Notes under the pieces: model-generated
The model's input: only the letters and a program-made list of their open reading frames with translations
What the model was told of the DNA's origin: nothing
Database searches by the model: none
Source of the DNA: Methanothermobacter sp.
GTDB lineage: Archaea; Methanobacteriota; Methanobacteria; Methanobacteriales; Methanothermobacteraceae
DNA length: 64,000 nucleotides
Reading direction: 5' to 3'
NCBI RefSeq assembly: GCF_030055425.1
Contig: NZ_JASFYE010000002.1
Span: 1 to 64,000, forward strand
Shown: piece after piece, positions 21,099 through 61,986 of the stretch
Position numbering within the stretch: the stretch's first letter is position 1
Layout of the letters: the number at the start of each line of letters is the position of its first letter
Made by a program: the position numbers and the translations under genes

Positions 21099-21407
21099 CT
21101 ACATTCAAAAATGCATGTCTTCAACATAACAGTAACCAGATCCTGTATTTACACTTGAAATGCATGTCTCCCTTTCAGTATCCCAGCATTTCAGGAATCG
21201 TTACACTTGAAATGCATGTCTCCCATTCATGGATAGATGGACAGATAATCGTTACACTTGAAATGCATGTCTCCCATTCACATTCAGGCAGACTGCCAGA
21301 GCAAATTTACACTTGAAATGCATGTCTCACTGGCCTTATTATGAAAAGGGTTGATATTAATAAAAACTTTTATCTAAGAGTTAGAATAAGAAAATTTACA
21401 CTTGAAA
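21099..21407 (+). repeat. Right array of Orc1/Cdc6 boxes (five plus one decayed)
   Basis: Boxes TTTACACTTGAAA or GTTACACTTGAAA at 21148-21160, 21200-21212, 21251-21263, 21306-21318 and 21395-21407. Four carry the downstream extension TGCATGTCTC, giving full-length origin recognition boxes; a sixth site at about 21099-21120 keeps only TGCATGTCT with a decayed core. Offsets are 52, 51, 55 and then 89; the last gap is filled by AT-rich DNA (21334-21397), the best candidate for the unwinding element. Confidence 0.85.
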
Positions 21408-21557: not shown

Positions 21558-22706
21558 ATGAATATTTTTGATGAGATAGGGGACAAAGAATCTGTTTTTA
21601 AGGATAAGAAATATCTCGACCACAGGTTTCTACCTGACAGGCTGCCTCACAGGGAGGAACAGATACGTTCAATAGCCAAGTACTGGGTTGAAGCACTGAA
21701 TGGAGTCACACCACCGGACATAACAATATATGGAAAAACAGGTACAGGGAAAACTGCGGTTGCCAAATTCGCCATGAAACAGCTCAAGGAAGCATCAAGG
21801 GACTGTGATGTTAACATAAGGACGGAGTACATTCGCTGCACAGATTACACAACAGAGTATCAGGTCATAGCAAGGCTCTGCCAGCAGCTTGGTCGTGATG
21901 TCCCCTACCGTGGCTGGACAAAGGCTGAGATAGTCAACACATTCAGGAACATGTTCAAGAAAAATGCCTTTGGCCAGGACATGATACTCCTTGTTGTCCT
22001 TGACGAGATAGATATACTCCTGAGGAACGATGGTGACGGCCTGCTCTACACCCTCACAAGGACAGATAATGTCTCCATACTATCCATAAGTAACTACGTT
22101 GAATTTAAAAAATTCATAAAACCACGAGTAAGGAGCAGTCTGAGGGACAGGGAGATAGTCTTCCCACCCTACGGCGCCCAGCAGCTTGTTGATATACTCG
22201 AGGAAAGATCCAAACTGTCCTTCAAGGAGGGTGCACTTGATGACGATGTAATACCCCTCTGCGCAGCACTTGCAGCCAAGGAGGAGGGTGACGCAAGGTA
22301 TGCCCTTGACCTTCTCAGGACCGCAGGTGAAATTGCAGATGAAAGGGATTCAGATATGGTTAAGGGGGACTTTGTGAGGGAAGCCAAGGACTACATAGAG
22401 CACAACAAGATCACAGACATCATACTGACTCTACCCAGCCAGCAGCAGAGGGTCCTTGAGGCGATACTCTACCTCACAAAGAGAAAGGAGGAGATAACCT
22501 CAGGAAGGCTCTATGAGGTCTACAAGGAGATATCAAAGGGTGATTCAGTTTCATACAGAAGAATATTTGACTTCATAAATGAACTCGAAATGCTTGGACT
22601 CATATCAACCAACACGGTCTCTAGGGGAAGGGGAAAGGGACGCACCAATATCATAGACCTCCAGTGCGAAACTTCACTCCTGGAGGACTCACTCTGGGGA
22701 GTCTGA
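21558..22706 (+). CDS. cdc6: Orc1/Cdc6 replication initiator
   Basis: A 382-residue AAA+ initiator that binds the origin boxes next to it and helps load MCM. Walker A is GKTGTGKT (59-66), Walker B VVLDEID (146-152), sensor 1 SISN (176-179) and sensor 2 [11 protein letters not shown] (244-254); residues 285-380 form the winged helix that reads the box ([21 protein letters not shown]). All catalytic residues are intact. Its position beside the origin marks it as the origin-linked paralogue (Cdc6-1). The last 18 nt overlap the convergent pyrB gene. Start ATG lies after TGGTACT, a weak ribosome site. Confidence 0.95.
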
Positions 22707-38082: not shown

Positions 38083-38142
38083 GGAAATCACTTATAACTT
38101 TTAACTTATAACTTCCAAGTTTTCACTTATAATGCTGAAATA

Positions 38143-60808: not shown

Positions 60809-60914
60809 AAAATTTTTTGGCCCCTCTTCTTATAAGTTATAACTTATAAGATATAATTTATAAGTTCTAAATTCTAAGTTCCAAGTGATTATCCTATCAG
60901 TTGATGGTGATTCA

Positions 60915-61682
60915 ATGGGAGAGATAATTTCAATCATAAACCAGAAGGGGGGCTGTGGCAAGACAACAACCGCAGTGAACCTCTCAGCAGCCCTTTCACT
61001 ACTTGAGAGGAGGGTGCTGGTGGTTGACATGGACCCCCAGGGTAACGCAACGACAGGGTTCGGTGTGAATAAATCTGAACTGGACTCAACCATCTACACA
61101 GTACTCAGCAGAAAGGCATCCCTCAGGGATGTGATACTGCCAGCCGAACTCGAGGACCTGTACCTTGCACCCAGCAACATATCCCTGAGCGGTGCAGAGA
61201 TCGAACTCAGCAGCGAGATAGGCTACCACGCCATCCTCAAGGAGGCTCTGGGGGACGTGAGGGATGAATTCGACTACATATTCATAGACGCCCCGCCGTC
61301 ACTGGGGATACTCACACTCAACGCCCTCGTGGCATCTGACAGTGTCATAATACCAATACAGGCGGAGTACTATGCCCTCGAGGGAATGGCCGACCTCCTC
61401 AGAACAATGAACCTTGTTGAGGAACGTCTCCAGAGCCCCTGCCCCATAAAGGGGATACTCATAACCCTCTATGACTCGAGGACACGCCTTGCAAGGGACG
61501 TGCAGGGGGAGGTTGAGAAGTTCTTTGGTGAAAGGGAGAACATCTTCAGAACAAGGATACCGAGAAACGTACGCCTTGCAGAGGCCCCAAGTCATGGAAA
61601 ACCATGCATCACCTATGACCCTGAAAGCACAGGTACGGGGGCCTACATGAAACTCGCAGCTGAAATACTGGACATGGAGTGA
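60915..61682 (+). CDS. ParA/Soj family ATPase
   Basis: A 255-residue deviant Walker ATPase: KGGCGKTT (11-18, with cysteine where ParA usually has valine), LVVDMDPQGNATTGFG and DYIFIDAPPSLGILTLNAL are typical of ParA/Soj. It should bind DNA as an ATP dimer and position chromosomes. No ParB or centromere array is adjacent; the short downstream gene is the likely partner. GGTGAT is 3 nt before ATG; the longer frame to 60885 is not supported. It follows thrS on the same strand. Confidence 0.9.
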   Translation: MGEIISIINQKGGCGKTTTAVNLSAALSLLERRVLVVDMDPQGNATTGFGVNKSELDSTIYTVLSRKASLRDVILPAELEDLYLAPSNISLSGAEIELSSEIGYHAILKEALGDVRDEFDYIFIDAPPSLGILTLNALVASDSVIIPIQAEYYALEGMADLLRTMNLVEERLQSPCPIKGILITLYDSRTRLARDVQGEVEKFFGERENIFRTRIPRNVRLAEAPSHGKPCITYDPESTGTGAYMKLAAEILDME

Positions 61683-61683
61683 T

Positions 61684-61986
61684 ATGATGACACAGAAGAA
61701 GGGCCTTGGAATGGGACTCGATGCACTCATCCAGTCAAGGACAAGGAAGGAAGTGAAGGAGACCTCTGACTCAGTGGCCGGAGATGTGCAGGTTGAGGCT
61801 GTTATAAGGGAGGTTAAACGCAACCCCCGCATAACCCTCTGGTCTGCAAGGTCTGCAGCGGTACTCAGGTACCTGAAAAAGACACAGCCAGAGTTCAGCA
61901 TAAGCAGGGAGGCATCGGACCTCATAGAAAGGGCCGTTAAGGAGAAGTACCCTGAAATATGGGAGATGTTCTCTGAACTCCAGTAA
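61684..61986 (+). CDS. Small ParA-partner protein with ParB-like N-terminal tip
   Basis: A 100-residue protein starting 1 nt after the parA stop. Residues 5-16 read KKGLGMGLDALI, which matches the N-terminal ParA-activating tip of ParB proteins (KxGLGxGLxAL), but the ParB/CTPase and HTH parts are missing. Residues 45-100 form a basic helical domain (IREVKRNPRITLWSARSAAVLRYLKKTQ) suitable for binding DNA or another protein. It may stimulate the ATPase or link it to other cargo. No family name recalled. GTGAT precedes the tandem ATG codons. Confidence 0.65.
   Translation: MMTQKKGLGMGLDALIQSRTRKEVKETSDSVAGDVQVEAVIREVKRNPRITLWSARSAAVLRYLKKTQPEFSISREASDLIERAVKEKYPEIWEMFSELQ

Follow-up and report, generated by a model that had tools for sequence, protein, structure and literature searches.

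A segAB cassette in Methanothermobacter with a ParB-type tip on SegB and candidate centromere arrays of heptad repeats

A gene for a ParA-family ATPase that is followed at once by a gene for a very short partner raises the question of what such an ATPase positions, and by what means. One such pair lies in the window, the stretch of 64,000 nucleotides of a Methanothermobacter genome that was analysed here as a whole. The initial annotation described the pair as parA directly followed by a gene of 100 residues, took the encoded partner for a ParB tip and little else, and proposed a different positioning system, for the chromosome or another cargo. The two genes indeed lie one base apart:

60915 to 61682, plus strand: segA (parA), a Soj-type ParA ATPase of 255 residues (Pfam AAA_31, E 8e-64).
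61684 to 61986, plus strand: segB, 100 residues comprising a ParB-type tip (residues 7-16), a short linker and a SegB-type ribbon-helix-helix domain (about 35-100).

By open reading frame and translation, segA starts with ATG at 60915, its stop codon ends at 61682, and its product contains the deviant Walker A motif KGGCGKT. The segB frame begins one base past that stop and its protein opens with MMTQKKGLGMGLDALI. In a PDB search, the nearest solved structures to SegA were bacterial ParA/Soj proteins (8RAY, E 4e-72; 1WCV, E 1e-60). The match to the Sulfolobus SegA chain 7DUT was far weaker (E 6e-19), and McdA was detectable only as a distant relative (E 2e-16, against 1e-60 for Soj).

The N-terminus of SegB holds GLGMGLDALI, a ParB-type ParA-activating tip. 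None of 200,000 shuffles of SegB's own residues recovered the tip, and of 80 related partners 78 contain LGxGLxx(L/I)(I/F), the remaining two being truncated at contig ends; its occurrence is therefore not due to chance, and the N-terminus was correctly recognized as ParB-like. At the central position of the tip, Lys or Arg is found in 75 of the 78 relatives and Leu or Met in three. The residue is Met in the SegB of the window and in every Methanothermobacter-group sequence read, and this departure from the usual basic residue predicts a weaker or different stimulation of SegA. In bacteria, the N-terminal peptide of ParB suffices for both binding and stimulation of ParA (PMC12462528). The pair thus combines an N-terminal activating tip with a Soj-type ParA, as ParABS systems do, with the activity of the tip predicted from its sequence. 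SegB has been stated to show no similarity to ParB (PMC9178275), which seems untrue for the tip of euryarchaeal SegB proteins.

The remainder of the protein shows that the partner is not a tip alone. A PDB profile built from 30 SegB relatives matched the C-terminal 65 residues to Sulfolobus SegB (7DUV, E 7.7e-14; 7DV2, E 8e-11); the match spans the whole C-terminal domain, so that residues from about 35 to 100 correspond to the SegB ribbon-helix-helix domain, and Sulfolobus SegB was the sole significant kind of solved relative. Because the alignment starts at chain residue 10, leaving the tip portion unmatched, no tip was detected in the Sulfolobus chain. The relatives share one architecture, in which a linker that varies in length joins the tip to a conserved C-terminal domain of ~65 residues. 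An AlphaFold model of the monomer was of moderate confidence, with 7DUV and 7DV2 as the top Foldseek matches, neither of them significant; as these did not settle the fold, support for it comes from the sequence profile. Scans of SegB with Pfam and NCBIfam returned nothing useful: Rap1a, at E 0.05 and under its cut-off, was taken as chance, and a histone fold, our first thought from the sequence, was discarded when the PDB profile search gave SegB instead. No omega chain appeared in that search at E up to 10, and hence homology to this plasmid protein was not detected.

As annotated, the partner lacks the ParB/Srx CTPase and HTH domains of a ParABS partner, with no Pfam match to either. A full ParB elsewhere in the genome would have spoken for another partner of this ParA; we searched the whole genome with Pfam and ParB_N (PF02195) was absent. 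Sulfolobus SegB is a ribbon-helix-helix centromere-binding protein that recognizes DNA in front of segAB and at other places (PMC12284271). Given the SegB profile match, the DNA-binding nature of SegB and the lack of ParB_N in the genome, the pair, in which a ParA-family ATPase gene precedes a gene homologous over the SegB ribbon-helix-helix domain, is an archaeal segAB chromosome-partition cassette. The C-terminal half had been called basic, which holds for residues 36-68 (net charge +6) and not for residues 51-100 (0) or 35-100 (+2). Attachment of this part to DNA is probable from its kinship with SegB, whereas the suggested non-DNA cargo fits neither a DNA-binding domain nor the DNA arrays described below.

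The cassette is widely conserved. Of the 151 genomes of the order that were searched, 135 encode SegB, and all 19 genera are represented among them. The partner is downstream of the ATPase gene in all 75 named loci whose contig includes the latter; the closest two genes overlap by 11 bp and the most distant are 451 bp apart. Sampling outside Methanobacteria recovered the pair in Thermococci metagenome-assembled genomes (MAGs), with the genes overlapping by 4 bp; within the class it also occurs in a genome of another family (G151), which we take to be Methanothermus. A review had already placed segAB in M. thermautotrophicus (PMC5120986), and a 2025 paper describes it as wide in Euryarchaeota (PMC12284271).

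Contrary to the annotation, which saw no parS array, repeats accompany the cassette. Two arrays lie in the window and two more outside it:

60828 to 60885, no strand: candidate SegB site at the segA promoter, with eight tandem heptads (60830-60885) and a perfect 24-bp palindrome (60828-60851).
38092 to 38133, no strand: second candidate for a SegB site, an intergenic array of six degenerate heptads flanked by two minus-strand genes.

The heptad at segA is TTATAAS, giving the core TTATAA-S-TTATAA, and its lag-7 periodicity stands 8.5 standard deviations above shuffles (z 8.5); palindrome and heptads provide the palindromic sites upstream of segA that are typical of segAB. Of 69 related loci, 54 have the exact 13-mer no more than 500 bp upstream of segA, compared with a single one of the 587 control windows taken from those loci, and a reversed control pattern gave 0 in this comparison. 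In two Thermococci loci that are nearly identical to each other, TTATAACTTAGAACTTATAA occupies the equivalent place. No significant lag-7 periodicity was seen in front of segA in Methanothermus, in two further loci (L074 and L198) or in a Methanohalobium plasmid. The junction that holds the array at 38092-38133 also carries one in two other species of the genus. The Sulfolobus SegB motif from ChIP, TCTAGA-S-TCTAGA (PMC12284271), has the same 6-1-6 layout as the heptad core. The arrays give exact candidate centromere coordinates in methanogens, with the same motif in the Thermococci MAGs; the 2025 study saw no SegB sites near segAB in Thermococcus sibiricus and supposed a different motif (PMC12284271).

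To place the arrays in the 1.67-Mb genome, we scanned it for three heptads with up to three mismatches, all genome-wide counts deriving from such pattern searches. Matches fell at four places on the contig of the window, at 38.1, 60.8, 79.9 and 106.8 kb, with one weak place elsewhere in the genome; the reversed control gave one match. The four arrays, of 4-8 heptads each, lie within 69 kb (P 2.8e-4 for random placement of four loci). The same contig carries, outside the cassette, a replication initiator gene that serves as context:

21594 to 22661, plus strand: orc1/cdc6 replication initiator gene (TIGR02928, E 1.8e-129).

This gene probably marks an origin region, and with orc1/cdc6 at 21.6 kb the arrays sit 16-85 kb from it, all to one side. 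The gene is about 39 kb from segAB, and the contig has another copy at 217.6 kb. Just upstream of the first copy, at 21149-21280, is a tandem repeat of 2.6 copies of a 51-bp unit, possibly part of the replication origin.

In the seven other genomes of the genus the arrays are likewise clustered around segAB. Most arrays in two genomes (G145 and G150) occupy equivalent intergenic junctions with diverged repeats, and every array examined is intergenic or at gene ends, several beside gene starts. The more AT-rich genera show many matches within about 20 kb of segAB, over a higher, sizeable background, and one genome with segAB (G128) yielded no strong array. In Methanothermus, six clean arrays of four heptads each are confined to 63 kb and lie 30-94 kb away from segAB, with none directly before segA. 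Five of these six lie inside a longer repeat with conserved flanks (G151:C1:1073612-1136475; L180-L182); the first three are oriented one way and the last three the opposite way, the switch falling between 1.081 and 1.092 Mb.

Other SegAB pairs are accompanied by repeats of different sequence. One genome (G140) has a second, diverged parA-segB pair (L139:2680-3754, contig C1), preceded by an array whose period is 8 bp (P 0.0025); its partner is 37% identical and bears the tip GGFGADMGSML, and by eye the pair adjoins NurA- and HerA-like genes. Two segAB pairs from IMG/VR, L198:953-2468 (tip VMGKGMDALF) and L199:1985-3162 (no clear tip), have 7-bp arrays through the linker-coding sequence of segB (P 0.0075 and 0.0025), and one of the two has a further 7-bp array upstream of the ATPase gene. 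As heptad repeats run through the linker-coding part, the candidate centromere of these pairs seems to lie partly inside segB itself. On plasmid pMETEV01 of Methanohalobium evestigatum (L200:1444-2969, NC_014254.1), a gene for an ATP-binding protein precedes a SegB-like gene whose product is 34% identical to the SegB of the window; TATAAAG repeats upstream have no significant periodicity (P 0.10). SegB reportedly wraps DNA in the way that the plasmid protein omega does (PMC9178275); for full activation of its ParA, omega requires at least four contiguous heptads (PMC9499535). Arrays of 7 or 8 bp and of varied sequence fit a ribbon-helix-helix protein that sits side by side on DNA in this manner.

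Taken together, these results favour, at a probability of roughly 0.8, a euryarchaeal SegAB cassette in which SegB acts on TTATAAS arrays, its tips activate SegA and origin regions are moved apart. SegB dimers would bind and coat the tandem 7-bp repeats through the C-terminal domain, both at the segA promoter and at the three further arrays of the same 70-kb cdc6-proximal region. An array coated in this way would display many N-terminal ParB-type tips, and these may contact nucleoid-bound SegA dimers and activate them, as the ribbon-helix-helix ParB of pSM19035 does with its ParA. Repeated tethering and release could then move the duplicated origin regions, with segAB, apart. Autoregulation through the array that covers the segA promoter is also probable. 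Points that weigh against this reading are the Met in the tip, the lack of an array directly before segA in Methanothermus, the lack of a strong array in G128, a draft genome (G124) with arrays in which segAB was not found, the fold matches that fell short of significance, and the background of the motif in AT-rich genera.

The best-surviving alternative, to which we give a small share of the probability, is that the heptad arrays serve another DNA-binding protein, such as an origin or nucleoid factor, and that SegB binds elsewhere. The proximity of the arrays to cdc6 would suit such a factor, as would the position of the Methanothermus arrays, away from segA. Arrays also persist where the genes seem to be missing: when draft genomes without segAB were examined for loss of arrays, one (G124; 98% complete) kept them, with 20 array matches on C4 and C11, 19 of them on a single contig, and segA and segB were not found. 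This genome is a draft of 20 contigs; the genes may lie in an assembly gap, or the arrays may exist there without them. A separate binder fits poorly with the presence of the motif just before segA throughout the order and in the two Thermococci loci, with the 6-S-6 layout common to the Sulfolobus SegB motif, and with the arrays of different sequence that other SegAB pairs carry in or near their own cassettes.

Slightly less probable still is that SegB and the heptads form mainly a local transcription regulator, an autorepressor with a few neighbouring targets and little or no role in chromosome movement. Ribbon-helix-helix proteins are often repressors, one array lies over the promoter region of segA, and the intergenic arrays, several of them by gene starts, would be in keeping with this function. 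A plain repressor would, however, have no need of a conserved ParA-activating tip or of constant pairing with a ParA, and the arrays cluster near cdc6 rather than along a regulon. Moreover, Sulfolobus segAB mutants segregate their chromosomes defectively (PMC12284271). An adaptor that links ParA to a non-chromosomal cargo, in an McdAB-like or other positioning system, is very improbable: the short partner without CTPase and HTH domains and the distant kinship of the ATPase to McdA would allow it, but the C-terminal domain is that of a DNA binder, the ATPase is far nearer chromosomal Soj, and DNA arrays accompany the cassette.

The pair is thus a known type of cassette with centromere-like arrays rather than a different positioning system with a minimal partner. 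Within this type, we think it likely that euryarchaeal SegAB constitutes a distinct subtype, in which a Soj-type ParA, a ParB tip and an archaeal ribbon-helix-helix binder are combined with a discrete centromere, made of TTATAAS arrays that occupy a small number of fixed intergenic positions around segAB and cdc6, and in which heptad sequence and period vary by pair. No report of the tip or of the heptad arrays of euryarchaeal SegAB was found in the literature searched, which included few subscription papers, and their novelty is provisional to that extent.

Compared with the SegAB of Saccharolobus solfataricus and Sulfolobus acidocaldarius (PMC5120986, PMC12284271; 7DUV, 7DV2, 7DUT), the present cassette has the same order of a ParA ATPase gene and a ribbon-helix-helix segB, palindromic sites upstream of segA built of two 6-bp halves around G or C, and further sites grouped near segAB and an origin. 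It differs in its bacterial Soj-like ATPase, distant from 7DUT, and in the ParB-type tip, undetected in the Sulfolobus chain. The sites differ as well: here they are few intergenic tandem arrays of 4-8 TTATAAS heptads, whereas the 13-bp Sulfolobus sites are scattered and mostly intragenic, 83.7% of them inside genes (PMC12284271). The ParA (delta) and ribbon-helix-helix ParB (omega) of pSM19035 (PMC9499535) likewise feature a small partner with an N-terminal activating region and arrays of at least four contiguous 7-bp repeats that cover promoter regions. In contrast to that plasmid system, the present one is chromosomal and archaeal, its heptad is TTATAAS instead of WATCACW, and its tip is of the chromosomal ParB type; SegB may resemble omega in its way of working, while no sequence homology to it was detected here. 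Bacterial ParABS (Soj/Spo0J; PMC12462528) relies on parS palindromes and sliding clamps, where the archaeal genome, devoid of ParB CTPase/HTH proteins, has a ribbon-helix-helix binder and heptad arrays. With ParABS the cassette nevertheless shares a Soj-type ParA, a GLGxGLxAL-type N-terminal tip and the grouping of sites in a single, probably origin-proximal, region, and the tip of euryarchaeal SegB points to a single chemistry of ParA activation common to bacterial and archaeal chromosome segregation.
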